A DNA stretch of 64,000 nucleotides from Agathobacter sp. (GTDB taxonomy: Bacteria > Bacillota > Clostridia > Lachnospirales > Lachnospiraceae). The DNA lies in assembly GCA_017409825.1 (NCBI GenBank), contig JAFQRZ010000016.1, positions 81,353-145,352 of the forward strand, written 5' to 3'. Shown here piece after piece: positions 41,414 through 64,000 of the stretch. The notes beneath the pieces were generated by a model that ran no database searches, was not told where the DNA came from, and saw nothing but the letters and a program-made list of their open reading frames with translations. The position numbers and the translations under genes were made by a program. Position 1 is the stretch's first letter. Each line of letters opens with the position of its first letter.

Positions 41414-41643
41414 GAAAGTATTTTTCTCTGTAGTTTATTTCACAGAGTAAGAGACGGGCTATATTATATATTAGATGAACACTGTTAGCGGCCGTCGTTA
41501 CTTAATGAGCGGCGATGCAAATCGTCGCGAATTTAGTAACGCAACGAGTCCGCTTTCAAGCGCAAGTCGTGTGTGAAGCTAATATATAATATAGCCCGTC
41601 TCGTAGTATTTAGAAATACAAATTACAGATGCAATACTCTTTC
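41414..41643. repeat. palindromic element C between nrdD and nrdG
   Basis: Perfect 24-bp arms 41451-41474 and 41579-41602 (GAGACGGGCTATATTATATA at the outer side) enclose a core at 41485-41575: GTTAGCGGCCGTCGTTACTT, an apical hairpin GCGGCGAT-GCAA-ATCGTCGC, TTTAGTAACGCAACGAG, and GCAAGTCGTGT. Outer motifs are GTAAGAGACG on the left and CGTAGTATTTAGAAAT (41602-41617) on the right. Further out, the left flank (from 41414: GAAAGTATTTTTCTCTGTAG) is a diverged inverted copy of the nrdD 3' end including its stop region. The core is shared with elements D, E and F. It could end or attenuate transcription between nrdD and nrdG. Confidence 0.85.
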
Positions 41644-43809
41644 TTTAATTTCCTGTGTACGTCCCTGATTCCAGAACTGTGTTCCAATATATCCACAAGT
41701 ACGACGAGCTACACTCATCTGATCCTGGTCTCGGTTACCGCAGTTTGGACATTCCCAAACGAGTTTTCCTGAGCCTTCTTCGGAAACGATCTGGATTTCT
41801 CCGTCAAAACCACATTTCTGGCAGTAGTCACTCTTGGTATTAAGTTCTGCGTACATGATGTTGTCATAGATGTACTGCATTACGGAAAGTACAGCTTCGA
41901 TGTTGTTCTGCATATTTGGAACTTCTACATAACTGATAGCTCCACCTGGAGACAATTCCTGGAACTGAGCTTCGAATTTGAGCTTGTCAAACGCATTCAT
42001 TTCTTCTGTTACATGAACATGATAGCTGTTTGTAATGTAGTTACGGTCTGTAACACCTTCGATAACGCCGAAACGTTTCTGTAAGCATTTTGCAAATTTG
42101 TAGGTGGTAGATTCCAATGGAGTTCCGTATAAACTGAAGTCCATATTGTTTTCTGCTTTCCATTTTTTACATGCTTCATTGAGCTTTCTCATAACAGCAA
42201 GACCAAATGGAGTACCTACTTCTGGATCTGTGTGAGATACACCTTTCATATAGCGTACACATTCATTTAAGCCTGCATAGCCAAGTGAAATGGTTGAGTA
42301 TCCACCGAATAATAATTTATCAAGCTTTTCGCCTTTTTCCAAACGTGCCAATGCACCATTCTGCCAAAGGATTGGAGCTACGTCAGATGGTGTGCCAAGG
42401 AGACGTTTGTGTCTGCACATAAGGGCACGGTAGCAAAGCTCAAGTCTTTCATCCATGATTTCCCAGAATTTCTTTTCATCACCTTCGGATGAACAAGCAA
42501 CGTCAACAAGGTTAAGTGTTACAACACCCTGATTGAAACGACCATAGTATTTTGGCTGGTTGGTTTCTGGATCAACATAAGGTGTTAAGAAGCTACGGCA
42601 TCCCATACAGGTATAGCAATGACCTTCGCCATTTTTGTCCACCTTAAGTTCTAACATTTTCTTTTCAGAAATATAGTCTGGAACCATACGCTTTGCTGTA
42701 CATTTTGCAGCAAGCTTGGTAAGTTCCCAATATTTTGTGCCTTCACGAATGTTATCTTCTTCTAATACATAGATGAGTTTAGGGAATGCAGGTGTAATGT
42801 AAACACCTTTTTCATTCTTAACACCCTGAATTCTCTGATGAAGCATTTCTTCAATAATTGCAGCAAGGTCCGCCTTGGTCTGTTCATCTTTGGCTTCATT
42901 TAAATACATGAATACAGTAATGAATGGTGCCTGTCCATTTGTAGTCATAAGTGTAATGACCTGATACTGAATCATCTGTACACCACGATTGATTTCTTCT
43001 TTTACACGGAGCTCAGCAACATCGTTTACCATTTGTTCTGTATATTCAATACCAATTGCTTCGAATTCCGCTTTTACTGACTGACGGAATTTTTCACGGC
43101 TAACCTGTACAAAAGGTGCAAGATGCGTAAGTGAAATACTCTGTCCACCATACTGTGAGCTGGCAATCTGTGCAATCGCCTGTGTAGCAATGTTACAAGC
43201 TGTAGAAAAGCTCTTTGGTGGGTCAATCATGGTTTCACTGATAACAGTGCCATTCTGAAGCATATCTTCTAAGTTTACTAAACAGCAGTTGTGCATGTGC
43301 TGTGCAAAATAATCTGCATCATGGAAATGAATCAAACCTTTTTCATGTGCTTCTACTACATCTTCTGGAAGTAAGAAACGTTTGGTAATATCCTTACTTA
43401 CTTCACCTGCCATATAGTCACGCTGAACACTGTTCACCGTAGGATTCTTGTTGGAATTTTCCTGTTTTACTTCTTCGTTATTGCACTCTAACAAGCTAAG
43501 AATCTGTTCATCGGTAGAGTTTGATTTACGAACCAATGCTCTTTTATAACGATATGTAATGTAGTTACGAGCCACATTAAATGCGCGGTGATTCATCAAC
43601 TGGTTTTCTACCATATCCTGAATTTCTTCTACGCTAGGAGAACGTTTCATGTTTTCACATGCATTTTCTACGTTTCTTGCAATTTCTTCAATGGTCTTAT
43701 CTGATAGTTTTTCATAATCCAATACGGATTCGTTTGCTTTGATGATAGCAGCTACGATTTTCTCTACGTCAAATACTACTTCGCTACCACTTCTTTTAAT
43801 AATCTTCAT
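41623..43809 (-). CDS. nrdD: anaerobic ribonucleoside-triphosphate reductase
   Basis: A 728-aa class III reductase making dNTPs without oxygen. The N-terminal ATP-cone (KIIKRSGSEVVFDVEKI, about 1-90) senses ATP/dATP. The glycyl-radical barrel follows, and near the C-terminus is the four-cysteine zinc site (CQKCGF...CPNCGNRD) and RRTCGYIGTQFWNQGR with the radical Gly. The ATG at MKIIKRSG with GGAGG 10 nt upstream is the real start; 42 further upstream codons are open but cover the promoter. Its last codons take part in palindrome C. Confidence 0.95.
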   Translation of the reverse strand: MKIIKRSGSEVVFDVEKIVAAIIKANESVLDYEKLSDKTIEEIARNVENACENMKRSPSVEEIQDMVENQLMNHRAFNVARNYITYRYKRALVRKSNSTDEQILSLLECNNEEVKQENSNKNPTVNSVQRDYMAGEVSKDITKRFLLPEDVVEAHEKGLIHFHDADYFAQHMHNCCLVNLEDMLQNGTVISETMIDPPKSFSTACNIATQAIAQIASSQYGGQSISLTHLAPFVQVSREKFRQSVKAEFEAIGIEYTEQMVNDVAELRVKEEINRGVQMIQYQVITLMTTNGQAPFITVFMYLNEAKDEQTKADLAAIIEEMLHQRIQGVKNEKGVYITPAFPKLIYVLEEDNIREGTKYWELTKLAAKCTAKRMVPDYISEKKMLELKVDKNGEGHCYTCMGCRSFLTPYVDPETNQPKYYGRFNQGVVTLNLVDVACSSEGDEKKFWEIMDERLELCYRALMCRHKRLLGTPSDVAPILWQNGALARLEKGEKLDKLLFGGYSTISLGYAGLNECVRYMKGVSHTDPEVGTPFGLAVMRKLNEACKKWKAENNMDFSLYGTPLESTTYKFAKCLQKRFGVIEGVTDRNYITNSYHVHVTEEMNAFDKLKFEAQFQELSPGGAISYVEVPNMQNNIEAVLSVMQYIYDNIMYAELNTKSDYCQKCGFDGEIQIVSEEGSGKLVWECPNCGNRDQDQMSVARRTCGYIGTQFWNQGRTQEIKERVLHL

Positions 43810-43903
43810 TCGTTTCTCTCCTCCACTAATTTTGTATCCCCAAGCAAAGATTGCTGGAACTTCGGTTTCTTCGGCAACCTCCGCCATTGTTATCGTGCTT
43901 TTT

Positions 43904-43931
43904 ATTATACAAGATATAGTGGTTTTGTCAA
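43904..43931 (-). promoter_or_regulatory. nrdD promoter with NrdR-like box
   Basis: On the minus strand TTGACA (43926-43931), 16-nt spacer and TATAAT (43904-43909). Within the spacer, CCACTATATCTTGT (43909-43922) resembles the NrdR box (ACACTATATxTTGT). Only one clear copy is seen; NrdR normally uses two. Confidence 0.65.
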
Positions 43932-43983
43932 CTTCCAAAAACTAGGACTTGTGGTTCGCTTTAGTCTGCGAAAGCATGAAAAA

Positions 43984-44010
43984 ACGCCGAAAAATCAAGG
44001 TTTTCGGCGT
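43984..44010 (-). terminator. intrinsic terminator after MarR gene
   Basis: Stem ACGCCGAAAA / TTTTCGGCGT with a 7-nt loop and TTTTTT tail on the minus strand, 46 nt past the stop at 44057. Confidence 0.85.
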
Positions 44011-44056
44011 CTCTTCATCAATATGAACAAATTTTAATGGAAAAATTTGTATAGTT

Positions 44057-44530
44057 TTATTTGGTGTTTTCTTCTACTAAATCTACTATATTTTGTGTCA
44101 ATCGGTCCAGGTACTCACGAAATCTAGTGATTTCCTCTTCTGTGAAGCCTTTTGTCATACCTTCTTCCAATCGCACCACATTGGCACGTGCCACATCATT
44201 AAATTGAATGCCTTTTTCTGTCATCTGCAATTTCTTGAGTCTTGCATCCTTTTCCATCGGAATACGGCAAATCAATCCATCCTTTTCCATCACCTTTAAA
44301 ATATTGGTCGCGGTCGCACCGGAGATTGCAAATGCTGCTTCTAAATCCTTCTGAAACACATCCTCTCCTTCATGTGCACGCAAATAGTGAAGTGTCGCAC
44401 ACTGCATTCGAGTAGGCTCAACTCCTGCCTTTTCCCATGAGGTGTGAAAATATTTATCAATATTGTTGTGAACAATACGAACCTTGTGTCCAAGATTCTG
44501 ACTCATTTCCTTATTCTGCATTCTGGTCAC
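44057..44530 (-). CDS. MarR-family transcriptional regulator
   Basis: A 157-aa winged-helix regulator. The HTH lies at about 60-85 (FQKDLEAAFAISGATATNILKVMEKDGLI), the wing is RIPMEKDARLKKLQMTEKG, and N- and C-terminal helices form the dimer. The start is uncertain: an in-frame Met at codon 4 is equally possible, as no strong site precedes either. It overlaps the second ABC gene by 20 nt and is the last gene of the operon. A MarR-type palindrome sits in the operon promoter (48228-48256), so it likely represses the transporter until the exported compound binds. Confidence 0.88.
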   Translation of the reverse strand: MTRMQNKEMSQNLGHKVRIVHNNIDKYFHTSWEKAGVEPTRMQCATLHYLRAHEGEDVFQKDLEAAFAISGATATNILKVMEKDGLICRIPMEKDARLKKLQMTEKGIQFNDVARANVVRLEEGMTKGFTEEEITRFREYLDRLTQNIVDLVEENTK

Positions 44531-46421
44531 CAGCTTTCATACCTGTGTAGAGCTGATAATACTTGCCCTGCTCTGTGATAAGTTCCTCGTGGCTGCCACG
44601 CTCAATGATACGTCCCTGTTCCAAAACCATGATACAGTCACTGTTTCGAATGGTGGAAAGTCTATGCGCGATAACAAATGTGGTACGTCCATGCATCAAT
44701 TTATCCATACCATCCTGTACGATACGTTCGGTACGCGTATCAATCGAGCTAGTCGCTTCATCCAAAATCAGTACTGGTGGGTCTGCAATCGCTGCTCTTG
44801 CAATCGCAAGGAGCTGTCTCTGTCCCTGGCTTAAGTTTGCACCATCTCCAGTTAAAACGGTATCATAACCATCTGGAAGCTGACGAATAAAAGTATCTGC
44901 ATTCGCAAGCTTTGCTGCTGCTATAACCTCTTCATCGGTCGCATCTAATTTACCATAACGAATATTATTTCGAACCGTATCCGTAAACAAATGCGTATCC
45001 TGCAATACGATACCAAGCGAACGACGCAAGTCTGCTTTCTTTATTTTGTTAATGTTAATACCATCATAACGAATCTTTCCATCCTGAATATCGTAAAAAC
45101 GATTAATCAGGTTTGTAATCGTGGTTTTGCCTGCACCAGTCGACCCAACAAAGGCGATTTTCTGACCTGGCGTAGCAAACATCTTGATATCATGAAGCAC
45201 GATTTTTTCTGGCACATAACCAAAGTCTACACCATCAAATACCACATCACCTAACAACTCATGGTAGGTAATCGTACCATCATCTTTGTGAGGATGCTTC
45301 CATGCCCAACGTCCCGTACGCTCATCGGTTTCTACCAATTCGCCGTTTTCTTCTTTAACATTGACCAAGGTTACATAACCCTCATCGGTTTCTGGTTCTT
45401 CATCAAGCAGTGCAAAAATACGTTCACAGCCAGCAAGTGCCATGATGATACTATTCATCTGCTGTACTACCTGGTTGATTGGCTGATTAAAGCTCTTGTT
45501 GAAGGTTAAAAAGCTTGCCAATTTACCAAGTGTAAATCCTCCGAAGCCTGCGAGTGCCAAAAGTGCACCAACCATCGTACAAAGCACATATCCAATATGT
45601 CCGATGTTATTGTTAATCGGTCCCATACATCCAGAATAGAAGTTCGCATTTACCGAACTGTCATACAACTGTTCATTTAACTTGTTAAATGCTTCGATAT
45701 TTTCATCTTCGTGGGTGAATACCTTAACTACCTTCTGACCAGAAAGCATTTCTTCCACGAAACCATTCAATGCACCCAAATCCTTCTGACGTGCTAAGAA
45801 ATATCGGCTGGAATATCCAGCGAAATGTTTCGATACAATTACGCTTACCACAACTACCGCAACAGAAAGCAGTGTCAGTGGAATACTCAAAATACACATA
45901 TTGATAAATACGGTCACAATGGTAATCACCGAGTTAACCATCTGTGGAATACTCTGACTTACCATCTGGCGAAGTGTATCAATATCGTTGGTATAAATCG
46001 ACATAATGTCTCCGTGGGCATGTGTATCAAAATAGCGAATCGGTAAATCCTGCATGTGATTGAACAATTCTTCTCGCATATCACGGATGCTGCCCTGTGA
46101 TACATAAATCAACACCTTCTGCTGTACAAATGCCGCTACTACGCCCAATGCATAGAAAATAGCGACACGTCCCATCGCTCCGAGCAATGGTCCATAATCT
46201 GGATTTGCTACGCCAATCATAGGGGCGATATAGTCGTCAATCAATGTCTGCATAAAGAGTGTTCCCTGTACACTACAGAATACAGATGTAAAAATACAAA
46301 TGAGTACGACAACATAATGTATCAAATAACGAGAGAAGATAAACTTCATCAGGCGGCTTAAAAGCTTACCTGGATTGCTAATTTTAGGAACTGGTCCTCT
46401 AGGTCCTCTTCCTGGTGCCAT
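44511..46421 (-). CDS. ABC exporter half, heterodimer partner 2
   Basis: A 636-aa protein with six membrane helices followed by an ATPase. Walker A GSTGAGKT, signature LSQGQRQLL (canonical SGGQ replaced by SQGQ), Walker B VLILDEATSSID and switch IAHRLSTI are present. About 40 extra residues between membrane and ATPase domains (TGRWAWKHPHKDDGTITYHE region) are typical of this subfamily. It starts at the TAATG overlap with the first subunit. Together they form a type IV heterodimeric multidrug-type exporter. Confidence 0.9.
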   Translation of the reverse strand: MAPGRGPRGPVPKISNPGKLLSRLMKFIFSRYLIHYVVVLICIFTSVFCSVQGTLFMQTLIDDYIAPMIGVANPDYGPLLGAMGRVAIFYALGVVAAFVQQKVLIYVSQGSIRDMREELFNHMQDLPIRYFDTHAHGDIMSIYTNDIDTLRQMVSQSIPQMVNSVITIVTVFINMCILSIPLTLLSVAVVVVSVIVSKHFAGYSSRYFLARQKDLGALNGFVEEMLSGQKVVKVFTHEDENIEAFNKLNEQLYDSSVNANFYSGCMGPINNNIGHIGYVLCTMVGALLALAGFGGFTLGKLASFLTFNKSFNQPINQVVQQMNSIIMALAGCERIFALLDEEPETDEGYVTLVNVKEENGELVETDERTGRWAWKHPHKDDGTITYHELLGDVVFDGVDFGYVPEKIVLHDIKMFATPGQKIAFVGSTGAGKTTITNLINRFYDIQDGKIRYDGININKIKKADLRRSLGIVLQDTHLFTDTVRNNIRYGKLDATDEEVIAAAKLANADTFIRQLPDGYDTVLTGDGANLSQGQRQLLAIARAAIADPPVLILDEATSSIDTRTERIVQDGMDKLMHGRTTFVIAHRLSTIRNSDCIMVLEQGRIIERGSHEELITEQGKYYQLYTGMKAGDQNAE

Positions 46422-48175
46422 TAGTTGTCACCTCCTTCGTCGAAGTCACCGCTGCCATGTACCTGTGCCTCATATACATCACGATAAATTGCATTGGTTT
46501 CTAATAATTCTTCATGGGTTCCAAAGCCATCGACTCTACCATCCTCTAACACGATAATCTTATCTGCTTCCTGTACGGAAGAAATACGCTGTGCGATGAT
46601 AAGCTTGGTCGTTCCTGGAATCGCAGTCTTAAATGCTGCACGAATCTTTGCATCCGTTGCAGTATCAACCGCACTCGTACTGTCGTCCAAAATAAGCACC
46701 TTAGGCTTTTTCAGCAGTGCTCTGGCAATACAAAGTCTCTGCTTCTGTCCACCAGATACATTCGTTCCGCCCTGCTCAATGTGTGTATTATATTTGTCTG
46801 GGAAGGTCTCAATAAATTCATCTGCACATGCCATCTTACATGCCTCGATGCATTCCGCTTCCGTCGCGTTCGCATTTCCCCAGCGAAGGTTATCTAAAAT
46901 ACTTCCGGAGAACAATACATTCTGCTGCAGTACAACCGCTACTTCATTACGAAGGGTTTCAAGGTCATACTCTCTAACATCTTTTCCACCTACATAAACC
47001 GTGCCTTCGTTGACATCATATAATCGGCTAATCATATTTACTAATGTCGATTTCGAGCTACCGGTTCCACCGATAATGCCAATCATCTGACCAGACTGAA
47101 TTTCCAAATTGATGTTGTCAAGCACTGGTGCTTCAGAATGCTCGGAATAACGGAAGGTTACATTTTCAAAACGAATGCTTCCATCTGCCACTTCCATCAC
47201 TGGATTTGCAGGATTGGTGATCGTTGCTTTCTCTTCTAATACTTCGCAAATACGCTGACCACTCGCTACACTCATGGAAGACATAACGAAAATCATCGCA
47301 AGCATCATGAGGTTCATGAGGATATTCATACAATAAGTAAGAAGCGCCATAAGGTCACCCGTTTCCAAGTCACCTACTACGATAAACTGTGCACCAAACC
47401 AGCTAATCAGAAGGATACATGAATATACCGTAAACTGCATCAGTGGATTGTTCCAGATAACGATATTCTCCGCTTTTACAAAGGTATCGTAAATATCCTG
47501 TGCTGCCTTATGGAAACGTCCTTTTTCGTGTTCGCCACGTACAAACGCCTTAACTACACGAATCGCAGATACGTTTTCCTGTACACTTTCATTTAATTTG
47601 TCGTATTTCTTGAAGGATTCCTGGAAATATTTCATTGCCTTGCTCGCAATCGTAACCAGGGCAAATCCCAAAATAATAACCGCTACTAAATAAACCGTCG
47701 CAAGCTTTGGACTGATAAAAAAGCTCATCGCCATCGCACAAATCAAACTGGCTGGAGCTCTCATGCAGATACGAAGCAGCATCATATAGGACATCTGAAT
47801 ATTTCCTACATCTGTCGTAATACGCGTAATCAAACTTGATGTGCTAAACTTATCAATGTTTGCAAACGAGAAAGTCTGAATATTTTCAAACATCGCCTTC
47901 TTTAAATTCTTTCCAAATCCCATCGCTGCAATGGAACCATATTTCGCACCACCTACACCAAAGGCTAACGAACATAATGCCATCACAACCATGATAATAC
48001 CGGTCACAAATACGTGAGTCGTATTGCCCTTATTGATACCCTCATTTACGATGGATGCCATCAGCAGTGGAATAATCGTTTCCATCAACACTTCACCAAT
48101 CATAAGAATTGGGGTAATGATCGAAGGCTTCTTGTACTCTTTGATGTAAGCGGCCAAAGTCTTAATCATGTTCAT
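46421..48175 (-). CDS. ABC exporter half, heterodimer partner 1
   Basis: A 584-aa protein with six membrane helices (about 20-300) and an ATPase: Walker A GGTGSSKST, signature VSGGQKQRL, Walker B VLILDDSTSAVD (Asp after the Walker Asp instead of the catalytic Glu) and the switch position IAQRISSV (Gln instead of His). Loss of the Glu and His makes its own composite site degenerate, the pattern of BmrC/TM287-type heterodimers, where the partner supplies the active site. First gene of the three-gene operon; GGAAG lies 9 nt before the ATG. Confidence 0.9.
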   Translation of the reverse strand: MNMIKTLAAYIKEYKKPSIITPILMIGEVLMETIIPLLMASIVNEGINKGNTTHVFVTGIIMVVMALCSLAFGVGGAKYGSIAAMGFGKNLKKAMFENIQTFSFANIDKFSTSSLITRITTDVGNIQMSYMMLLRICMRAPASLICAMAMSFFISPKLATVYLVAVIILGFALVTIASKAMKYFQESFKKYDKLNESVQENVSAIRVVKAFVRGEHEKGRFHKAAQDIYDTFVKAENIVIWNNPLMQFTVYSCILLISWFGAQFIVVGDLETGDLMALLTYCMNILMNLMMLAMIFVMSSMSVASGQRICEVLEEKATITNPANPVMEVADGSIRFENVTFRYSEHSEAPVLDNINLEIQSGQMIGIIGGTGSSKSTLVNMISRLYDVNEGTVYVGGKDVREYDLETLRNEVAVVLQQNVLFSGSILDNLRWGNANATEAECIEACKMACADEFIETFPDKYNTHIEQGGTNVSGGQKQRLCIARALLKKPKVLILDDSTSAVDTATDAKIRAAFKTAIPGTTKLIIAQRISSVQEADKIIVLEDGRVDGFGTHEELLETNAIYRDVYEAQVHGSGDFDEGGDN

Positions 48176-48227
48176 GTATGTATCTTCCTTTCTTTTCCTT
48201 TTTTGCTAACTTTGAGGCAAACAAAAA

Positions 48228-48289
48228 CTTAGCCAGCTAAAAGTTAGCTTGCTAAGTAATATTATATGCGTATGAATCAGCAGTGTCAA
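48228..48289 (-). promoter_or_regulatory. ABC operon promoter with MarR-type palindrome
   Basis: On the minus strand TTGACA (48284-48289), 17-nt spacer, TATAAT (48261-48266), then a 29-bp inverted repeat (48228-48256; half site CTTAGCxAGCTAA, 12 of 14 positions paired) starting 4 nt after the -10. A repressor bound there would block the promoter. Confidence 0.75.
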
Positions 48290-48328
48290 TTATGTAGTAT
48301 AAAATTTATAGTTTATTTAGAAATAAAA

Positions 48329-48350
48329 AGAGGAAGCCTCTGCTTCCTCT
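48329..48350 (-). terminator. intrinsic terminator after alpha/beta hydrolase gene
   Basis: Perfect stem AGAGGAAGC / GCTTCCTCT with 4-nt loop and TTTTTATTT tail on the minus strand, 8 nt past the stop at 48359. Confidence 0.88.
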
Positions 48351-48358
48351 CGCATATT

Positions 48359-49462: not shown

Positions 49463-49497
49463 GTTATCCCTTATTTCCCTCTATAACAAATAATCCT

Positions 49498-50166
49498 TTA
49501 TACATGGAAGCGTCTCTTCAACTCTTCTCTTGCCTTTCTATCGCCGATAATCACGGTTCCTACAAACATCAAAATCGTAAACACCTGCACCCCAAACGCA
49601 TAGTATGGGAATGTAATGATATCCAGCCACATCAAAATCAGCATCACGCCACATGCCACCAATGCCGTCAATTGGTCAATCAAATAACTATGCCAGTTTC
49701 TTCGATTGATAAAAAGCATCAAAATGATGAGCGCAATGTCCCACAGAAGAATCGCTGTTGGCATCGCAAAATTCACACCCCAGCCATGATTTCCTGTAAG
49801 CAAATCCGCTTCAATCAAAAATGCCATACCAATGATAATGGTCCAAACGATTTTCGCCATATAGGAGGATTTTCCTAGAATGGTCAATCGTAACAGCACA
49901 TTGGCAAAAATAATCACCAGTCCTGCCGTAAAGCTCCACAAAAATGCTGGGTCTGTCGTATAGTCAATGATAAATAACACGACCCAAAGTGCAATGGATG
50001 CAAACAAAAATATATTCTCTAGAAACTGATATTTTCTTCTTGCTATACGGGCATTCGGATATAAATCTTCTTTTTCATTTCCATCCCACTCCAACACATT
50101 GTTACAAAGTGGGCATTTATCTGTTTTATCAAGGATGTCTACCTTGCACATTTTACATCTACTCAT
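49498..50166 (-). CDS. DUF6320-type zinc-ribbon membrane protein
   Basis: A 222-aa protein. An N-terminal zinc ribbon (CKMCKVDILDKTDKCPLC, residues 4-21) is followed by a linker and six predicted membrane helices. It resembles the DUF6320 family. The start at MSRCKMC is chosen because GGGGTG lies 4 nt upstream; it overlaps the 3' end of the acyltransferase gene by 8 nt. It is co-transcribed between the acyltransferase and the alpha/beta hydrolase, an arrangement that I recall from other Lachnospiraceae. The role is unknown, probably membrane support for the acyltransferase. Confidence 0.68.
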   Translation of the reverse strand: MSRCKMCKVDILDKTDKCPLCNNVLEWDGNEKEDLYPNARIARRKYQFLENIFLFASIALWVVLFIIDYTTDPAFLWSFTAGLVIIFANVLLRLTILGKSSYMAKIVWTIIIGMAFLIEADLLTGNHGWGVNFAMPTAILLWDIALIILMLFINRRNWHSYLIDQLTALVACGVMLILMWLDIITFPYYAFGVQVFTILMFVGTVIIGDRKAREELKRRFHV

Positions 50167-55015: not shown

Positions 55016-55057
55016 AGGGGGGCGTCGACAAACTATCAATTTGTCGACGCCCCCTTA
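55016..55057. terminator. bidirectional terminator hairpin
   Basis: A perfect 19-bp stem (AAGGGGGGCGTCGACAAA on the outer side) with a short loop between the convergent DUF2804 and serpin genes. T-rich on one side and A-rich on the other, it can stop both. The GTCGACAAA...TTTGTCGAC part resembles the loop region of the hairpins at 38037 and 40776. Confidence 0.82.
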
Positions 55058-55067
55058 AAATTTATGT

Positions 55068-56489
55068 TTATCCCTTAGGGTTATTTACGCACCCTGTAAA
55101 GAGTGGAATATTCTCATTTGTGATTACAAATAAAAATGGTCTATCCAGTACAAAATCGATGATTTCTTTCGGTGGTTCTGCCGCACCTGCACCTGGAAAT
55201 TCGATATAGGTCGCTGCCTTAACCCCTTCTTCATCAATCTGTACACGAACCGATTGGTTTGCTCCCGTTAGCCAAATTGGAGAATCCGAGGTAAGATTCG
55301 TAAATTCAGCCTCATATTCTGTAAAAACTTTTGTCACTCCCATTGCTTTTAAGCCATCACTCAAATCTAACGTAGAGGCTACATCAAACTTTGGAACAGA
55401 AAAATTGACCTTCATGTATTTTTTGTTCTCCCACTTATTGGACAGAAGCATATCCATATAAGTTCCATTATTTAAGACATCCTCTGTTGTCATTCCTTCA
55501 TCTGGAAGGATAAACCACATGTGACATCCATTTTTCAGCCACATATTTACTGCACTAAAATTCTCACCCCAGTAATAATTCATGTGGTACAATTCTTTGT
55601 TCATGTACTCCGCCTGAATATCTCCATTCGGCGTATGAAATACACTATCTGTATTATTTCTTTCTGAAAACTCATCCGACCATCTCGCCTGAAAATACAA
55701 AGTAGAATATAATGCCAGGATAGTTTCTGGTGACAACTGAATATTCTTCGTGCTGTTGCTTAAAAACTTTCCAGTGTTATTATTAATCCATGCCGCGATA
55801 TCCTTATTCGTCTGATTGCTTCCCAAATCTCCCTGATATACGGAGGCATAATAGTGATATCCCAGTGCATCCATTGCCTCCTGGTTATACTCTAATCCCT
55901 TTTCTAACCACAAGGAATTTGCAAGCACACAAATCTCATTCGACCGGTTCTGATATACACTTTCCCATACGGCACTGACTTGTTTCCGGAGTTCATCATT
56001 ATCTTCTACATCAAAGATATCCAAAATCTGTTGTCTTGTCTCACCTTCGGTCAGCTCTGTAGCCATGGCCAAGCCAATGTAGGCATTGATTGGTGACCAG
56101 ATCTTGTTCTCGTTCTGCTCAGTCTGAAGGAACTGTCGATTCCCATCTACAAAAAACGAATACAAACCTGACATAGCCACATCTGCATTTTCATTTCGTG
56201 CCGCCACCTGTGCATCCCATGCCTCCACATCTGCTCGCCATTCTTCGCGGTCTTCATAATCATCCAAGTCTGGATGTTCTGGAAGTCTTGGCTCCGAAGC
56301 TTCTGCGACCGTATATGCCATAATCATAGAAGGAGCATTTAAAATATTTAATCCGACTACTATCACAAGTGCTGCCGCCACTGCAACCTTCCAAAATGTT
56401 CGTTTTCTTTTCTTTGGAGGATTTTCTGCCTCCTCAATATGCTTATCACTGATTTCTTCTAAAGCAGTTAATATTTTCTCATGCCTCAT
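55068..56489 (-). CDS. membrane-anchored serpin fused to sigma-operon N-terminus
   Basis: A 473-aa protein. The first about 40 residues (MRHEKILTALEEISDKHIEE) look like the cytoplasmic part of ECF anti-sigma proteins. One membrane helix follows (about 33-52), an acidic linker, then a serpin domain (about 95-473): NKIWSPINAYIGLAMA, the DxxxxYSTLYFQARW strand, and the hinge DEEGVKAAT leading into a reactive loop IEFPGAGAAEPPKE before FVLDRPFLFVI. Counting from the hinge, P1-P1' falls at Ala-Ala, which suggests elastase-like targets. It sits exactly where an anti-sigma factor would, overlapping the sigma gene by 11 nt. Confidence 0.85.
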   Translation of the reverse strand: MRHEKILTALEEISDKHIEEAENPPKKRKRTFWKVAVAAALVIVVGLNILNAPSMIMAYTVAEASEPRLPEHPDLDDYEDREEWRADVEAWDAQVAARNENADVAMSGLYSFFVDGNRQFLQTEQNENKIWSPINAYIGLAMATELTEGETRQQILDIFDVEDNDELRKQVSAVWESVYQNRSNEICVLANSLWLEKGLEYNQEAMDALGYHYYASVYQGDLGSNQTNKDIAAWINNNTGKFLSNSTKNIQLSPETILALYSTLYFQARWSDEFSERNNTDSVFHTPNGDIQAEYMNKELYHMNYYWGENFSAVNMWLKNGCHMWFILPDEGMTTEDVLNNGTYMDMLLSNKWENKKYMKVNFSVPKFDVASTLDLSDGLKAMGVTKVFTEYEAEFTNLTSDSPIWLTGANQSVRVQIDEEGVKAATYIEFPGAGAAEPPKEIIDFVLDRPFLFVITNENIPLFTGCVNNPKG

Positions 56490-57039
56490 ACGGATATCCC
56501 TCCTTTTTCAGATATTCTTTCAAACTGTTTCTCATTCGGTTTAATCGGACAGAAACTGCATTCTCTTGCATTTTAAGTTCTCTTGCGATATCCCCTACGG
56601 AATCACCATACCAATAACGTCTTATAAAAATATATCGACTTTCTCTTGATTTTGATGCAAGAAATCGATCTATGGCACGCCCCAATTCCCTCGCATCGAT
56701 AATCTGTTCCATACTTTCTGCTGGCAAACAGCCATTTAGCTCCTCCAACGAAACATCGTATCGACTATTTCTCTTCTGTGCAGTATCTCTGCGCAATCTC
56801 TTTAGTGCTGTATTTCTTCCAGTACGATATACATACGGAGCCAAAGGATCTGGTGATACAGGTGGAATCGCATTCCAGAGAGCAAAATAAGTATCGTTGG
56901 TACATTCTTCCGCATCCGACTGATTTCCCAAGATATTATAAGCAATCCGATGTAACTGCTTGCCGAATCTTACACTCAATTCACTGATTGCATTCTCTGC
57001 CCTTGCAAATAAAAGTTTGACAATCTGTCTATCTTCCAT
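56479..57039 (-). CDS. ECF-type RNA polymerase sigma factor
   Basis: A 186-aa sigma-70 family protein. Region 2 (about 20-90) has FGKQLHRIAYNILGNQSDAEEC and APYVYRTGRNTALK; region 4 (about 125-180) has FIRRYWYGDSVGDIARELKMQENAVSVRLNRMR. No regulator of the usual kind is downstream; the serpin membrane protein takes that place. The start at MEDRQIV has GGGGG 7 nt upstream and is preferred to earlier in-frame Met codons. Such sigma factors often control their own operon, but no repeated promoter motif could be confirmed here. Confidence 0.88.
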   Translation of the reverse strand: MEDRQIVKLLFARAENAISELSVRFGKQLHRIAYNILGNQSDAEECTNDTYFALWNAIPPVSPDPLAPYVYRTGRNTALKRLRRDTAQKRNSRYDVSLEELNGCLPAESMEQIIDARELGRAIDRFLASKSRESRYIFIRRYWYGDSVGDIARELKMQENAVSVRLNRMRNSLKEYLKKEGYPYEA

Positions 57040-57201
57040 TTTCATTCCCCCTTTCACCTATATTCACCCTTTTTATACCTATAATCTTACATAATTTTTC
57101 ATACAAAATGAAGAAGGATTTTGATAAAAATTTTGATTTTCTATACACTACGAAATCAACCCTTATATTTTTAAAGTCTGGACACACTCTACCGAACCAT
57201 G

Positions 57202-57428
57202 CTGGAAGATAAGTAGTTAAGTTCTTCCAAAAAGTAAGAAAAGCGGACGATGTATATATATAATATTGGACCATTAGCGGCCCGTCGTTACTTAGCGAAT
57301 GGCGATAAAATCGTCATGAGGTTAGTAACGCAACGAGGACGCTATGAGCGAAAGTCGTGTCCATATTTATATATATACATCGTCCGCTTTTCGTAGTATT
57401 TCGAAAACCTAACTACTTAAGTTTCCAG
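57202..57428. repeat. palindromic element D between sigma operon and glgP
   Basis: Long arms 57239-57271 and 57359-57391 (AAAAGCGGACGATGTATATA outer side) surround a core at 57272-57358 (ATTAGCGGCCCGTCGTTACT, apical hairpin GGCGAT-AAA-ATCGTC, GTTAGTAACGCAACGAG, AAAGTCGTGT). Outer motifs: GTAAGAAAAGCGG on the left, CGTAGTATTTCGAAAA (57392-57407) on the right. Still further out, CTGGAAxxxAAGTAGTTAAG on the left mirrors the last codons and the stop of glgP. A lone copy of the right-end motif, in reverse, lies at 57137-57152. The element is directly downstream of glgP and can act as its terminator. Confidence 0.85.
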
Positions 57429-59665
57429 ATGTCTTTGTTGTACTGCGCGATTGTACGGTCAGATGAGAAGAAACCAGCTTTTGAAATATTTACCAGCATT
57501 TTCTTAGCCCATTCTTCTCTGTTTTCATAATCTGCATATACTTTTTCGCGAGTTTCTACATAATCTGCAAAGTCTGGGAATGTCATAAACCAGTCTTTGT
57601 TTAAAAGTTCGTTGTAGAGACGATATAAGCATTCGTCATCACCAAAACGTCTTACGTCATCACTTACGATGAAGTCTACTGCACGTTTCAATCTTTCGTC
57701 TGCTTCATAGTAATCTCTTGAACAGTAATCGCCACGTTCATATCTGTCGATAACCGTCTGTGAATCTTCACCAAAGGTATAGATATTATCTTTGCCTACT
57801 AATTCAGCGATTTCTACGTTAGCACCGTCCATAGTACCAAGTGTTACAGCACCATTTAACATAAACTTCATGTTACCAGTACCAGAAGCTTCCTTAGAAG
57901 CAAGAGAAATCTGTTCTGATACGTCACATGCAGGGATTAATTTTTCTGCTAATGTAACATTGTAGTTTTCTACCATGTAAATGTTAAGGTATGGACGTAC
58001 ATGTGGATCGTTGTTGATTACATGCTGTAAAGCTAAAATCAAGTGAATAATATCCTTCGCGATTGTATAAGCAGGAGCTGCTTTTGCACCAAAAATAACA
58101 GTGATTGGCTTGCTTGGGATGTTACCAGCTTTGATTTCGAAGTATTTGTGGATTACATAAAGTACGTTAAGCTGCTGTCTCTTGTATTCGTGGAGACGTT
58201 TTACCTGGATATCGAAGATAGAATCTTTGTTTAAGTGGAGATTCTGTGTCTTTGCAAGGTATGCTACTGCAGCTTCCTTCTTGCTTTCTTTGATTGCAAG
58301 GATGTTGTTTAATACTTCTGTATCATCTACAAATTTACCTAATTTTTCTAATTTGCTTGCATCCTTCTTCCATTCGTCACCAATAAGGCTGGTTACATAG
58401 CTTGAAAGCTCTGGGTTACATTCCATGAACCAACGACGGAATGTGATACCATTGGTCTTATTGTTGAATTTCTTTGGATACAGCTTGTAGAAGTTATTAA
58501 GTTCTGTGTTCTTTAAAATTTCTGTATGAAGATATGCTACACCATTTACACTGAAGCCATAGTGAATATCCATATGAGCCATGTGTACCAAACCATCTTT
58601 GATGATATATGTTGTTTCATCTTTTACTTTTTCCTTGATACGGTTATCAAGCTCACGGATGATTGGCATAAGCTGTGGCACTGCTTTTTCTAAGAAGTGC
58701 ATTGGCCATTTTTCCAAAGCTTCTGCAAGGATTGTATGGTTTGTATAAGCACATACCTTAGATACAATCTTGATTGCATCGTTCATGAGGATTCCTCTTT
58801 CGCCCATCTGACGGATGAGTTCTGGAATAATCATAGAAGGATGTGTATCGTTAATCTGGATTACTGCATAATCAGCTAAGTCATAGATATTTGAGCCTTT
58901 TGCTACTGCTTCATCCAAGATGAGGTGAGCCGCATTGCTTACCATGAAGTACTGCTGATATACACGAAGGAGTCTACCTTGTTCGTCAGAATCGTCTGGA
59001 TACAAGAAAAGGGTGAGGTTCTTCATAATGTCTTCTTTATCAAAGTGGATGGTATCTTCTACGATACGTTCATCTACAGATTCGATATCAAATAAATGAA
59101 GTTTTGTTGTACGGTTGTTGTAACCACATACATCGATGTCATACATACGAGACCATACACGCATACCACCGAAGTCGATTGGATAGCAAACTTCTGTCTT
59201 ATTAAGCCAGCTGTTATCTGTAATCCATGGATTTGGAGTTTCTTTCTGTTTACCCCAGTCAAATACCTGTTTGAAAAGACCATAGTGATAATTAAGACCT
59301 ACACCATCGCCATTCATGCCAAGTGTTGCCATAGAGTCAAGGAAACAAGCTGCCAAACGACCAAGACCACCATTACCAAGTGATGGTTCTAATTCGATTT
59401 CCTCGATTTCAGCCAATGATTTTCCAGCATCTTCCAAAGTTTTCTTAACTTCGTCATAGATGCCAAGGTTTATTAAGTTGTTCGATAATAATTTACCAAT
59501 TAAGAATTCTGCAGAAACATAGTATACTTTTTTCTTACCTTCATTGCTTTCTTTTTCATGAGCAAGTTCTTTTGTCATTTCAAGAAGTGCAATGTAGAGT
59601 TCTTCGTTTGAACATTCTGCAACAGATTTGTTCCATTTTGTTTCTACTACTTTTGTTAAATTCAT
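57413..59665 (-). CDS. glgP: glycogen/starch phosphorylase
   Basis: A 750-aa GT35 enzyme releasing glucose-1-phosphate from alpha-glucans. Motifs: [18 protein letters not shown] (about 103-120), [11 protein letters not shown], the glycogen-handling [16 protein letters not shown] and the PLP region [15 protein letters not shown] with Lys, followed by [10 protein letters not shown]. Shorter than animal or E. coli enzymes, as usual in Clostridia. The ATG at MNLTKVVE with AGGAGGG about 10 nt upstream is chosen; 30 open codons before it have no site. It completes the glycogen cycle with glgB and the GH13 enzyme. Stop codon lies in palindrome D. Confidence 0.94.
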
Positions 59666-59774
59666 TTTCTTTTCCCTCCTAAAATAGGCATTTTTTAAAG
59701 AACACAGTGTTAGTATATGTAAAATTCTATCATTTTTCTTGTAATATAGTGGCATAATATGGTACTATTCTATC

Positions 59775-60644
59775 ATGAACATTTTAGAGTATGAGAACTA
59801 TCAGGAGAAAAAAAGCCATGTAGATGCGTCATTTCCGTACAATACTTTGCTTTGCTCCATACCGTTAGACTTTCGCAACGTTCCTTTACACTGGCACGAT
59901 GAAATGGAGATCATCTATATCAAAAAGGGACACGGATATGTAACTGTGGATTTCAAGCAATACAAGGTTTCAGGTAGTACAATTGTGCTTATCCTACCAG
60001 GACAATTGCACTCGATCGAACAATTCGACGACCTTTCCATGGAATACGAGAACATCATTTTCAATGTTGGTATGCTGCTTCCTCGTACCGAAGATACCAG
60101 CAGTACGGGATTTTTGCGCCCATTTTTAAATGGACAGATTACCGTACCAAGTGTGTATTCCATCGTATCTGAGCATTACAAGGCCCTCTCTTCCTGTCTG
60201 GATGCCTGCGATGAAATCTGCAAAACCAAACCGGAAGGCTATGATTTATATATCAAAGGAAAACTCTTTGAATTCTTTTATATCCTAAGCAATCGCTGCC
60301 GGAACGAAAAAAATCCAAGGACCACAAAGTCCCTGGATAAAATGAAAATCATATTAAAATTTGTAGAAAACAGCTATATGCACAAAATAATGGTGGCTGA
60401 AATCGCAGACCGTGTAGACTTTTCAGAATCCCACTTCATGCGCTATTTCAAAGAAAATATGGGCACTTCTTTCGTCGACTACCTGCGTGATTACCGCCTT
60501 ACTATGGCTGCACGCCTGCTTTTGGTGTCAGATGATACGGTCCTTAGCATTGCGGAAGAGGTTGGCTTTGATAATCTTTCCTACTTCAACCGAGCGTTTA
60601 AGAAGAAATATGGGGTGACACCTAGAGAGTATCGAAATAACTAG
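59775..60644 (+). CDS. AraC-family regulator with cupin sensor
   Basis: A 289-aa protein. The N-terminal cupin (VPLHWHDEMEIIYIKKGHGYV, with the metal-like HWH) senses a sugar or similar ligand; the C-terminal double HTH (about 195-289; MVAEIADRVDFSESHFMRYFKE and LSIAEEVGFDNLSYFNRAFKK) binds DNA. It is divergent to glgP with 109 nt between start codons, so it probably controls glgP or its own gene in response to carbohydrate. No direct repeat of half sites stands out in the gap. Confidence 0.88.
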   Translation: MNILEYENYQEKKSHVDASFPYNTLLCSIPLDFRNVPLHWHDEMEIIYIKKGHGYVTVDFKQYKVSGSTIVLILPGQLHSIEQFDDLSMEYENIIFNVGMLLPRTEDTSSTGFLRPFLNGQITVPSVYSIVSEHYKALSSCLDACDEICKTKPEGYDLYIKGKLFEFFYILSNRCRNEKNPRTTKSLDKMKIILKFVENSYMHKIMVAEIADRVDFSESHFMRYFKENMGTSFVDYLRDYRLTMAARLLLVSDDTVLSIAEEVGFDNLSYFNRAFKKKYGVTPREYRNN

Positions 60645-60653
60645 CTCACTAAT

Positions 60654-61811
60654 CTATTTCTTTCTCGCCTTACGTTCCATCATATAAAATATTACTATAA
60701 TACCCAATGCCCATGCAGCAGTATAAACCAAATATTCTGGATACCAGTATTCATATTTGTATGGACTCACTCCATTATCGTATCCCCACCCCACCGAATG
60801 TATTTGTGAGAGAAGAAAAGCACTTGGTAATAACAGAATATTCCTTACCCCATAAAAAATGAACTTCTTTCTATTCTCTTTTTCTTTTGTAATACCTGCA
60901 ATTGCAGATATCACATTTGCTAATAGCAAGCATATCGCTATTACCGCTGTGATGACCTCTACTATCATATCTTCTGGTGATGGTTCAAAATATGGTGCAA
61001 AGAAAAACAGTGCTGCATACAAAAGAAGTGTTCCAATCTGTATACGATTCATATTCTTAAACAATTCCACATGAACAATCTCTTCTTGGATTGTTTTATC
61101 TTCTTTTTTAGCCCCAGTTATCCATGTGACATATTTGCCTTTTAGAAGCCAATAGCCCGCCGTTAAAATTACTATTACACATGCAATACCTGTATATTCT
61201 GGCATCATATAGGTGAATAATAAATAAAACGTAAAAACAACAGCCGCAATCAAATAATATATTAAATATGAAAAATCTCCTAAATACTTGTCATATTTTT
61301 TTACTAATGCAGCATCTGCGTTCTCAAACATTTCACTATCCAATCTAATATCTCTCATTTGTGCAACTGCAATTGTAACCATTATAAATGCCACTATTTG
61401 CGACAAAATCAAAATGACCCAGCAAATTACCTCTGGAACATCCGGACTAGGTGCCAGCACAAACGGCATAACAAATCCCACAACTACCAAGGCTAATGCA
61501 ATCCACAGGATAATTCTATATTTGGAAATCTCACGCTGAATCAGTGATTTTACCTGCTTCTCAACCTTTGCCTCTCTTTTATCTACCTGTTCCGAATATG
61601 TAATGCGTTCCCCTTTTAATAGTTCATCACAGGTCACACCCAAAATTTCTGCCAATGCAGGAATCAAGGTGATATCGGGTGCAGACTCATCTCTCTCCCA
61701 ACGGCTCACTGCTTTATTTGATACATTCAGTTTGTCGGCTAATTCCTGCTGTGTCAAACCATTTGCTTTTCGAAGCACAGCTATAAATTGTCCAATTGTT
61801 TTCTTTTCCAT
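60654..61811 (-). CDS. XRE-type HTH regulator with membrane domain
   Basis: A 385-aa protein. Residues 6-60 form an XRE-like HTH (FIAVLRKANGLTQQELADKLNVSNKAVSRWE). A Lys/Glu helix follows, then a long membrane region with about seven to eight helices grouped in pairs (about 108-385). One-component membrane-bound repressors of this type are common in Lachnospiraceae; the signal and target are unknown. The start at MEKKTIGQF with GGAGG 7 nt upstream is preferred to an earlier Met eleven codons upstream. Convergent with the AraC gene, 9 nt apart. Confidence 0.85.
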   Translation of the reverse strand: MEKKTIGQFIAVLRKANGLTQQELADKLNVSNKAVSRWERDESAPDITLIPALAEILGVTCDELLKGERITYSEQVDKREAKVEKQVKSLIQREISKYRIILWIALALVVVGFVMPFVLAPSPDVPEVICWVILILSQIVAFIMVTIAVAQMRDIRLDSEMFENADAALVKKYDKYLGDFSYLIYYLIAAVVFTFYLLFTYMMPEYTGIACVIVILTAGYWLLKGKYVTWITGAKKEDKTIQEEIVHVELFKNMNRIQIGTLLLYAALFFFAPYFEPSPEDMIVEVITAVIAICLLLANVISAIAGITKEKENRKKFIFYGVRNILLLPSAFLLSQIHSVGWGYDNGVSPYKYEYWYPEYLVYTAAWALGIIVIFYMMERKARKK

Positions 61812-61935
61812 CCCTCTGCCTCCATGATGTTTTTCTACCATCATTTTGCAAAATTCTCGCCCAAAATGACACCCTGCAAAGCGGAAATATGTCTCGCATA
61901 GCGAGATTTCCCTTATATATTGCCTTAAAAAGCAC

Positions 61936-62451
61936 CTAATATAACACTAAATACCCCAAAATTGCAGCTCCAATAGCTACTACCATCCCTGCCACTACAT
62001 CACTGATGTAATGCACGCCTGATACCACACGCACCACTGCAAGAAGTATCGATATTCCAAGAAATATACATCCTAACCAGCTCCATGGTGACATAAATAC
62101 AAAGGTCATGGCAATCATGGTCGCGGAAAAAACATGACGACTCGGAAACGAATTGCCCTTTGTATCCTTCTTAATCACTGGCGGAACCTCAAATTTCTCG
62201 TAAGGTCTAGGTCTATTTACCACACTACGAAAAACAGATAAAAGCACAAAGCTTATCGCAGGCACAAACAATGCTCGCCAGAAGCTAAAATAACTACTAT
62301 ATTTTCCATAAAAGAAAAGATACACGAGAAGTACTGGATATGCCAAGTACATCACTCCCGTGCATAATTTGTTCGCTATATGTATCCCCTTAGCCAAGTC
62401 GGGATTCTCTCGAAATGGCTGGGTCATTTTGATATACGTTTCTTTTTTCAT
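61936..62451 (-). CDS. PAP2-superfamily membrane phosphatase
   Basis: A 171-aa integral membrane protein with about five helices. The three phosphatase signatures are visible: SVVNRPRPYE (RP of motif 1), SFPSRH (motif 2, with Arg instead of the usual Gly) and RVVSGVHYISDVVAG (motif 3 with the His and Asp). Substrates of the family include phosphatidic acid and undecaprenyl diphosphate, so a part in lipid recycling is likely. No partner gene is adjacent. Confidence 0.85.
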   Translation of the reverse strand: MKKETYIKMTQPFRENPDLAKGIHIANKLCTGVMYLAYPVLLVYLFFYGKYSSYFSFWRALFVPAISFVLLSVFRSVVNRPRPYEKFEVPPVIKKDTKGNSFPSRHVFSATMIAMTFVFMSPWSWLGCIFLGISILLAVVRVVSGVHYISDVVAGMVVAIGAAILGYLVLY

Positions 62452-62489
62452 TCGTCAATTCCTCACTCGCATTTCCATGCTTTTCTATA

Positions 62490-62861
62490 TTAAGGATTTG
62501 TTCTGTTATTATTTCCATTTCCTAAATTATCTACACCATCACGAATGGCATCCCCTGTATCCTTGATACTGTCCATCAAGTTACGTCCTGCGTCCTCTAA
62601 ATCACTGCCAGAAGGATTGCCGTTCTGAGTGCCGTTGTTATTCATGCCACCATTTCCTGTGCCATTATTCTCTGTACCAGCACCATTGTTATTCATGCCA
62701 CCATTGTTCATACCATTATTGGTATCATTAACATCTTTATTGGTTTCATCCTCATAAGGTGCCTCTGTACCATTGTTCTCGTTTCCACCACATGCGGTAA
62801 GACATAAGCTTCCTGCCATTAAAATAGCACATAAAATCAAAAGTTTGTTTTTCTTCATCAT
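62490..62861 (-). CDS. Asn/Gly-rich lipoprotein
   Basis: A 123-aa exported lipoprotein. The signal peptide (MMKKNKLLILCAILMAGSLC) ends in the lipobox LTAC at Cys-24. Then comes an Asn/Gly/Met low-complexity stretch with repeated NNGGMNNNG units (about 50-80) and a short C-terminal helix LMDSIKDTGDAIRDGVDNLG. The helix recalls small stress-response or sporulation-type lipoproteins seen in Clostridia. Two adjacent Met codons are possible starts. It lies just after the TetR gene with 49 nt between. Confidence 0.72.
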   Translation of the reverse strand: MMKKNKLLILCAILMAGSLCLTACGGNENNGTEAPYEDETNKDVNDTNNGMNNGGMNNNGAGTENNGTGNGGMNNNGTQNGNPSGSDLEDAGRNLMDSIKDTGDAIRDGVDNLGNGNNNRTNP

Positions 62862-62910
62862 ACAAATCTCCTTTTCTTTTTGAAATTAGTATGATGCATT
62901 CTGCAAAAAA

Positions 62911-63435
62911 TTATTCGTATAAAAGGTTTTCCAAAAGATAAATGAAAAATCGGCAATTCGCCTCACCAGACTGCAGCAATGCCATAATATTCGTAAAAAC
63001 ATAGTCACAGAAATTTTCTGGCTGGAATTCCATGTTCCAAATGGAATTATTTACCTTTTCATCTTCTTTTAAAATCTGCATCAAAAGTGCAATAGTAGCC
63101 TCCTTCGGAATTTTCCCTTCCAAATCACGCACCCAGCTACCATCGTACGGTGTCATTTTGGCATACAAATAGCTATAATACCACTCCAAAAACTGCGTAA
63201 AGCTCATACCATGATGATATAATCGCTCCTGATCGGAAAAAATATTGTTCCAGAACACTTCAGCCATAGCTGTTACCAAAGATTCCTTATCTGGATAATA
63301 ATTGTATACTGAGCCAACAGCAATCCCACAGGCAGACGCAAGCTTACGAATACTCAGCTTGTCTACCCCTTCTTTTTTTGCAATTAGCAATGCTTTTTCT
63401 AAAATTAAATCTGTAGATGTAACACGATGATTCAT
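62911..63435 (-). CDS. TetR/AcrR-family transcriptional regulator
   Basis: A 174-aa protein with an N-terminal HTH (about 22-50; KLSIRKLASACGIAVGSVYNYYPDKESLV) typical of the family, followed by an all-helical ligand domain that is somewhat shorter than usual. No transporter is next to it; the closest gene downstream is the Asn-rich lipoprotein. Upstream lies only palindromic sequence. The signal and target are unknown. Confidence 0.88.
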   Translation of the reverse strand: MNHRVTSTDLILEKALLIAKKEGVDKLSIRKLASACGIAVGSVYNYYPDKESLVTAMAEVFWNNIFSDQERLYHHGMSFTQFLEWYYSYLYAKMTPYDGSWVRDLEGKIPKEATIALLMQILKEDEKVNNSIWNMEFQPENFCDYVFTNIMALLQSGEANCRFFIYLLENLLYE

Positions 63436-63572
63436 AATTCTCCCCTATAAGTTATCCACTTATCCACAATCTTGCCAACAGGAATTGTTGAACATAGTTC
63501 ATCATATCACTCTACGTTGTTTTTTTCAAGAATTATCCAAAATTACTTTTACTAACGACATAAGATTTCCGC

Positions 63573-63813
63573 AAATTCCGATTTAGTTACGAATTGAGTT
63601 TTTCGACAAACTACGAAACGAGGCATTTGTATATATAAAATTCAGACACGTTTGCACTCTTCGCCAGCTCGTTGCGTTACTAAGTTCGTATCAAGTTGAC
63701 ACTTGCTACTCACTAAGTAACGACGGCAGCTCGAAAGGTCTGATATTTATATATACAAATGCCTCGCTTCTTACTCTATGGATATTCCCCAATTCGTAAC
63801 TAAATCGGAATTT
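63573..63813. repeat. palindromic element E (reverse orientation)
   Basis: Outer arms AAATTCCGATTTAGTTACGA (63573 on) and its complement up to 63813; inner arms 63619-63647 and 63738-63766 (CGAGGCATTTGTATATATAA on the left). The core at 63648-63737, read on the minus strand, gives CCGTCGTTACTTAGTGAG, an apical hairpin AGCAAGT-GTCA-ACTTGAT, then CTTAGTAACGCAACGAGC. The right-end motif is present in reverse at 63600-63615. It is therefore the same family as C and D but flipped. It fills the 560-nt gene-free end of the window together with element F. Confidence 0.85.
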
Positions 63814-63907
63814 CTCTATAGAGGAGCCAAGTCGCATATTTACTGGCAAATTAGGTTTGTCTATATTGTATCTACAATTTCGAGAAGATGGACTCGGTTA
63901 GTTCCTC

Positions 63908-64000
63908 AAAAAGTAAGAAAAGCACAGGGAGCATATATAAAAGGGGACCATTAGTGGCCCGTCGTTACTTAATGAACAGACCACAGTTTGTGGGCTGTGA
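63908..64000. repeat. palindromic element F, cut by window edge
   Basis: The left half of another copy: AAAAAGTAAGAAAAGCACAG, an AT-rich arm (GCATATATAAAAGGGGAC), then the core start CATTAGTGGCCCGTCGTTAC and an apical hairpin ACAGACCACA-gt-TTGTGGGCTGT. The matching right half lies beyond the window. It has the orientation of C and D. Between E and F (63814-63907) no gene is seen. Confidence 0.75.

Follow-up and report, generated by a model that had tools for sequence, protein, structure and literature searches.

Four large palindromes in a 64,000-nucleotide stretch of DNA from Agathobacter sp. (assembly GCA_017409825.1, contig JAFQRZ010000016.1, positions 81,353 to 145,352) raise the question of what keeps them folded, an RNA or the mobility of a piece of DNA. 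The whole stretch is termed the window (G000:C8:81353-145352, G000 being the source genome), and its base 64000 is the end of the contig. The palindromes are element C (41414..41643, plus strand), element D (57202..57428, plus strand), element E (63573..63813, minus strand) and element F (63908..64000, plus strand, cut), and inspection bore out the positions given for them in an initial annotation of the sequence, including the reversed orientation of E. As set out below, they represent a family of mobile palindromes that is real and widespread and has a structured core, probably an RNA. In one combined statement, the most likely reading, which we hold with moderate confidence, is that of a miniature inverted-repeat transposable element (MITE) for which the RNA of the core is important.

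Copies in the source genome

C, D, E and F are members of a single, genuine repeat family. In its exact form, the core pattern CGTCGTTACTT..TTAGTAACGCAACGAG occurs at 15 places in the source genome and its reversed control at none, and the half-core TTAGTAACGCAACGAG is found with at most two mismatches at 31 places as compared with four for the control. A covariance model was built from 18 copies of the source genome (45 consensus pairs, 30 of them with at least one double change), and the search for further copies that the initial annotation had called for returned 68 matches at E<=1, the first 29 of which (E<=1e-14) were counted as full or near-full elements. The remaining 39 comprise reverse-strand echoes of palindromes, copies truncated at contig ends, and hairpins that are short or degenerate; window element F, a contig-end fragment, does not appear in the list. 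The copies agree in the core and not merely in low-complexity arms. One copy (L068, G000:C7:32372-32500) lacks the apical part of the core and retains the basal stem; the missing part looks deleted between two TTAG repeats.

Structure of the element

The element measures about 190-240 bp and consists of conserved internal loops alternating with helices that are unrelated between copies and paired inside each copy. From the outside inwards, a copy-specific palindromic arm is followed by a conserved asymmetric loop (GTAAG on the left and CGTAGT on the right in the source genome), then by a basal stem that is nearly perfect and particular to each copy, a short helix that varies, a mini hairpin closed by a GNRA loop and, innermost, a conserved stem, a GA/GA internal loop and a variable apical hairpin. 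The conserved stem is formed by GTCGTTACTTA with TTAGTAACG in the source genome and by GTCGGTACTTA with TTAGTACCG elsewhere. The conserved unpaired ends (GTAAG, CGTAGT) and, in the alignment of the source genome, the covarying basal and apical stems are as initially described. Three features go beyond that first description, namely the near-constant length of the basal stem, the GNRA mini hairpin and the composite nature of E/F. With regard to the first of these, 29-31 nt separate GTAAG from ACC in nearly all parsed copies of the source genome; a promoter as the explanation of this fixed length was weighed by eye only and dropped. In some copies the strands of the GA/GA loop are swapped (GCGA..TGAG in place of TGAG..CGA), an exchange that is expected if recognition depends on the fold of the module rather than on its linear sequence.

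In element D, the left outer arm (57202..57229) pairs with the right one (57400..57428), which includes the stop codon of the adjacent phosphorylase gene, and the left strand of the basal stem, stem1 (57239..57263), whose sequence is particular to D, pairs with the right strand (57367..57391). The conserved core P3-P5 with the GA/GA internal loop and the apical hairpin occupies 57279..57347 and the mini hairpin GC-GAAA-GU with its GNRA tetraloop 57348..57355, all on the plus strand. Folding of D gave z = -11.5 for the plus and -11.4 for the minus strand, and none of 200 shuffled sequences folded as well.

The core as a probable RNA

Evidence on the core comes from an alignment, made on sequence only, of 55 out of 67 cores, from which near-duplicates (L049, L050, L054, L059, L064 and one copy of L063), cores framed too long or divergent (L075, L090, L099, L133), one L061 copy and L153, which has no mini hairpin, were left out. 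In these 55 cores, 96.6% of the cells of 19 consensus pairs are paired as compared with 83.3 +- 0.6 after shuffling, and the covariation score of 0.412 lies, as for a structured RNA, beyond both the shuffled (0.163 +- 0.009) and the slid control (at most 0.138). Deviations from Watson-Crick pairing in the main helix (16 pairs) amount to 20 G.U and a single A.C, a ratio for which the binomial p of 2e-5 is a guide only, the sequences being related; realignment of all 67 cores gave 21:1.

The loop of the mini hairpin is similarly restricted. A parse that placed no restriction on the loop succeeded for 108 of 123 elements and returned GNRA in 101 of them; the seven other parses are out of register, a GNRA hairpin following directly. 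Among the 15 unparsed elements, GNRA was recognised by eye in 13, and the hairpin is lost in the other two (L153, L155). When GNRA was sought specifically, it was found in 66 of the 67 cores, the single miss being L153 with its lost hairpin. The loops are GAAA, GAGA, GCAA, GGGA, GGAA and GCGA, and the closing pairs vary. A purine at the third loop place is a mark of RNA, and restriction to GNRA together with an excess of G.U over A.C is expected for an RNA of one strand, not for DNA.

Taken together, GNRA loops, one-sided wobble and covariation lead us to read the core as an RNA of the plus strand that is under selection. We read the outer stems as more like DNA palindromes, since they are without strand preference in the source genome and have changed in concert between sister species. 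The initial annotation had proposed selection on structure, acting either on an RNA or on a cruciform used for mobility. Both halves of this proposal find support, each in a different part of the element: the first in the core with the three features just named, the second in the transposon-like ends, i.e., inverted repeats and 10-bp target duplications, of a related genome.

Mobility in a related genome

This related genome, G299 (titled Clostridia bacterium B91_16_CH_BP), contains a greatly amplified 189-bp version of the element with an 18-bp terminal inverted repeat (TIR), CAATGTCATTAAGTTAAG, which with at most two mismatches is present at 125 forward and 136 reverse places (control 0 and 1). 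A 10-bp target duplication with at most one mismatch borders 35 of the 49 complete copies that have readable flanks, as compared with a mean of 2.6 and a maximum of 8 for shuffled flanks. The 49 copies divide into 30 with an exact 10-bp duplication, five with a single-mismatch 10-bp, five with an exact 9-bp and one with a two-mismatch 10-bp duplication, and eight with none. The same TIR delimits insertion sequences of about 1.7 kb at four of the 23 DDE_Tnp_1 loci of G299, and an exact 10-bp duplication accompanies two of these. The proteins of three of the four loci (L252, L255, L256) and the transposase of the source genome were scanned, and all passed the NCBIfam cut-off for the IS4 family. 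The natural reading for G299 is mobilisation in trans by an IS4-type transposase. A second arm type shows a 10-bp duplication in L153 and another in L155, read by eye.

Several side observations concern these loci. The 189-bp elements of G299 (L099-L174, L216-L251) are often inserted beside GTAAC(A/T) motifs, and many of the insertions lie inside other short palindromic repeats that recur in the loci read, e.g., GTTACTATTCACGGC..GCCGTGAATAGTAAC. In the IS4-type elements L253, L255, L256, L252 and L275 a hairpin of differing sequence, e.g., GGCCGCTCTCGCTGC..GCGAGAGCGGCC, is located just before the transposase start and resembles, by analogy, a leader or attenuator structure.

In the mechanism that we propose, a MITE-like, non-coding mobile element would carry a core that is read on one strand and arms that are, in one related genome, the ends of a transposon. 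IS4-type or other DDE transposases acting on the arms would mobilise it in trans, and different lineages may have exchanged the arms while the core was retained. The core may have been kept because the element needs the plus-strand RNA fold or because this fold renders an insertion tolerable. The outer stems, on the other hand, would be kept paired at the level of DNA, by their function as transposon ends and by hairpin-templated correction, and not by selection on RNA.

Observations to be weighed against RNA and mobility

A number of observations weigh against this combination of an RNA core with IS4-type mobility. In the rows of other genomes fitted to the structure, an alignment that leans towards G.U, the wobble bias is weaker (88 G.U, to which one nearly invariant pair contributes 41, vs. 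21 A.C in the core; 41 vs. 14 in stem1), and the core in the source genome has 30 G.U, 18 of them in one invariant pair, vs. five A.C. A strand bias of wobble pairs is absent from arms and stems of the source genome (21 vs. 26; stem1 6 vs. 7). The automatic duplication test was positive for one of 61 elements of other genomes, and no target duplication was seen by eye in the source genome, where the terminal repeats are the copy-specific palindromic arms. The match of these arms to IS4-type ends is no closer than that of shuffled sequence (mean best match 10.3/18 vs. 9.9/18), such that the single IS4 transposase of the source genome is not established as mobiliser; IS4 ends of this genome were rejected as the source of the arms. 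Finally, elements between co-directional genes are evenly oriented, 42 on the strand of the genes and 43 on the opposite one, which argues against a cis-acting RNA with host transcripts as its targets and led us to reject an untranslated-region (UTR) element with a single direction of transcription.

Well-paired outer stems without strand bias in the source genome and the even orientation would both fit a purely DNA-level palindromic MITE, in which RNA plays no role and the stems are kept by hairpin-templated (quasi-palindrome) correction together with recognition of a cruciform or single strand in transposition. The transposon ends and duplications of G299 agree with it equally. We regard this explanation as possible rather than probable, since it accounts neither for the restriction of the mini-hairpin loop to GNRA nor for the predominance of G.U over A.C in the helix of the core, 20:1 to 21:1.

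RNA-like constraint in the absence of an orientation bias towards host genes looks as if selection acted via propagation of the element, and elements with different types of arm have kept the core. Both points could be taken to indicate that the folded plus-strand RNA takes part in the movement itself, as guide, template or transposase cofactor. Such RNA-dependent mobility appears very improbable to us: DNA transposition accounts for the 10-bp duplications of fixed length and for the matching IS4 ends of G299, and no reverse transcriptase or guide-dependent nuclease stood out in the spacers read, no systematic search having been made. More broadly, one might think of a selfish element present across a whole bacterial family, its fitness depending on its own structured RNA acting in propagation (e.g., by binding a transposase or host factor) and its transposon ends being interchangeable, a notion that we put forward as a rather doubtful speculation. 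Returning to the MITE with an RNA core, one and the same element seems to separate stems maintained at the level of DNA from helices maintained at the level of RNA.

Comparison with a sister species

At the site of the E/F pair, the sister species G1032 (same genus) has no such pair. E and F form a composite of two inverted elements, the members of which recur at other contig ends of the source genome. F is incomplete, as it runs into the end of the contig at window base 64000, and longer copies of F are found at the ends of contigs C6, C9 and C16. The arm on the host side of E (63541..63572) has its inverted partner outside F on C6, which places the E/F unit inside a longer palindrome. The left flank of the empty site in G1032 aligns with the window up to about 63570 and the right flank with contig C6 (1191 of 1421 columns identical, score 1913, as compared with 49 and 146 for the flanks of two control contig ends), which indicates that C8, the contig of the window, and C6 join at F. 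The flanks in G1032 are separated by an inverted repeat of about 20 bp, which may be the old target or a remnant. The arms at this site differ between the two genomes on both sides and are self-complementary in each; a change of both sides with self-complementarity kept is a concerted one and favours a DNA-level process for the outer stems, as the DNA-level MITE would have it. The site of C is likewise in line with that explanation: here, G1032 has an element of another core subfamily with a different self-complementary basal stem and arm, i.e., stem and core are replaced between similar flanks.

The orthologue of D in G1032 differs in basal stem and core by two bases of the apical loop only, with loop 1 changed by one base on each side and the left arm by several, and identity in the flanking alignments amounts to 93% (element included) and 89%. 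Stem and core this little changed could be understood if the element had been domesticated as a regulatory or protective RNA (terminator, 3'-UTR stabiliser or insulator) and were now immobile in most hosts. We consider this unlikely. The amplification and target duplications in G299 and the presence or absence of E/F point to mobility, both orientations relative to co-directional genes are equally frequent, and the orthologue of the copy C4:91073 in G1032 is without the core. In this orthologue (L339 vs. L042) most of the core has been lost, the basal stem is unchanged and the surroundings have diverged; at least some copies are thus dispensable.

Arrangement and neighbouring genes

Neighbouring copies were counted as pairs, from retyped lists, when adjacent, on opposite strands and within 700 bp. 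They lie left end to left end in all 15 pairs from other genomes (several from one genome) and in all eight of the source genome, 23 in total, and two further neighbouring copies are in tandem. A gene carried within the pairs was considered for 15 pair intervals and rejected. Eleven have no open reading frame (ORF) of >=75 aa, the longer intervals L144, L146 and L158 contain ORFs that by eye resemble ordinary host genes, and L175 has one short ORF.

Copies are mostly situated downstream of genes and some of them in or beside existing palindromes. According to crude ORF calls with several loci per genome, 126 elements have an ORF on both sides, 85 of them between co-directional, 33 between convergent and eight between divergent genes, a distribution that would also suit the domesticated RNA considered above. 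Right ends are at most 60 nt from an ORF in 96 and left ends in 36 of the 126 cases, numbers that are confounded by the inverted pairs. No element was located inside a long ORF, which is uninformative as the element would itself break an ORF.

In the window, C is a single copy (model match 41444-41618) between nrdD (41623-43938) and nrdG (40828-41349), and D is a single copy (model match 57231-57408) between a gene of the glycogen phosphorylase family (57413-59755) and an ECF-sigma-like gene (56479-57057); all four genes are on the minus strand. C and D extend with their right arms over the stop codons of nrdD and the phosphorylase gene, respectively, and the non-coding left arm is therefore complementary to the end of a coding gene. 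E (model match 63599-63777) and F are the left and right members, respectively, of the inverted pair.

Distribution among bacteria

In a sample of the family, searched with the model of the source genome at E<=1e-3, 56 of 299 genomes gave matches, and the core is common to the sequences of 29 loci of other genomes from this sample. The order and phylum samples were searched with a core model built from 55 elements, with stricter filters and at most nine candidates scored per genome; all counts include the source genome. Matches were obtained in 70 of 392 genomes and 37 of 173 genera of the order sample, all listed matches being in the same family, and in five of 398 genomes of the phylum sample, four of which belong to the same family and one (G657) stands outside the class. 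G657, from another class of the same phylum, has at least nine matches (L280, L285, L290), which suggests transfer between classes or contamination. The same-genus genomes G292 (family and order samples) and G1017 (order sample) gave no match in the filtered searches. Among the matches listed, and counted by genome, named contigs with the exact core mostly stem from metagenome-assembled genomes and isolates of Lachnospiraceae, other filings being Clostridia bacterium, Eubacteriaceae, Eubacterium, Lachnoclostridium and Agathobacter; from these names we infer Lachnospiraceae as the host family. A virus-borne element was rejected, the one exact core pattern tried on viral contigs having given no match there.

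If the core is a functional RNA, a mobile element would be spreading an RNA domain unmatched in Rfam 15 through much of a family of bacteria from gut and rumen. The many genera, the large recent amplification in G299 and the sites shared with the sister species make it testable whether the core is selected for propagation, for tolerance by the host or for neither.

Comparison with known families

The window gave no match to Rfam 15 at gathering threshold, the single match in 17 element-bearing loci at this threshold lies outside the element, and searches of three elements by E-value returned matches at chance level only. Identity with an Rfam family was rejected on these grounds, and the absence of a named family, as stated initially, holds for Rfam 15. 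This match is a TwoAYGGAY RNA (RF01731) in L081 at 1253-1414, beside the element at a distance of about 90 bp and not inside it. Among the titles listed by full-text literature searches, the coverage of which excludes most subscription journals, none concerned such a family in Lachnospiraceae.

The IS4-family insertion sequences of G299 share the terminal repeats of the element at four loci and have 10-bp duplications at two, but all four copies examined are without the core. Repetitive extragenic palindromes (REPs) are described as often lying near one another with inverted orientation, for the most part downstream of genes, and as equipped with unpaired GTAG or CGTC tags (PMC3733652); a REP unit has 20-40 bp, however, a size that the element with its about 190-240 bp exceeds. 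For bcr10 and bcr18, reported as interspersed repeats with conserved secondary structure that are transcribed within 5' UTRs (PMC3446304), the likeness, by description only, lies in the interspersed repeats with conserved secondary structure, and the difference in that the account consulted concerns the Bacillus cereus group.

A close parallel is provided by MITEs, which are characterized in PMC3733652 by a length of 70-300 bp, TIRs of 15-30 bp and a lack of coding capacity. Bacterial MITEs such as bcr1 of the B. cereus group, ERIC, NEMIS, RUP and EFAR are likewise short, non-coding, palindromic, intergenic and hairpin-forming and possess TIRs. The present element is short, multi-copy and non-coding and has terminal inverted repeats, be it the 18-bp TIR in G299 or the palindromic arms in the source genome; a target duplication of fixed length is established in G299 only, and an autonomous relative with the same ends is present in G299, while in the source genome the similarity of the arms to IS4-type ends equals that of shuffled sequence. 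The element works like a MITE and in G299 conforms to the definition of one. To MITEs as portrayed in that description it adds an RNA-like core with internal loops, GNRA hairpin and one-strand wobble that is kept in dozens of genera, stems that are particular to each copy and nearly constant in length, and pairs that face each other with their left ends.

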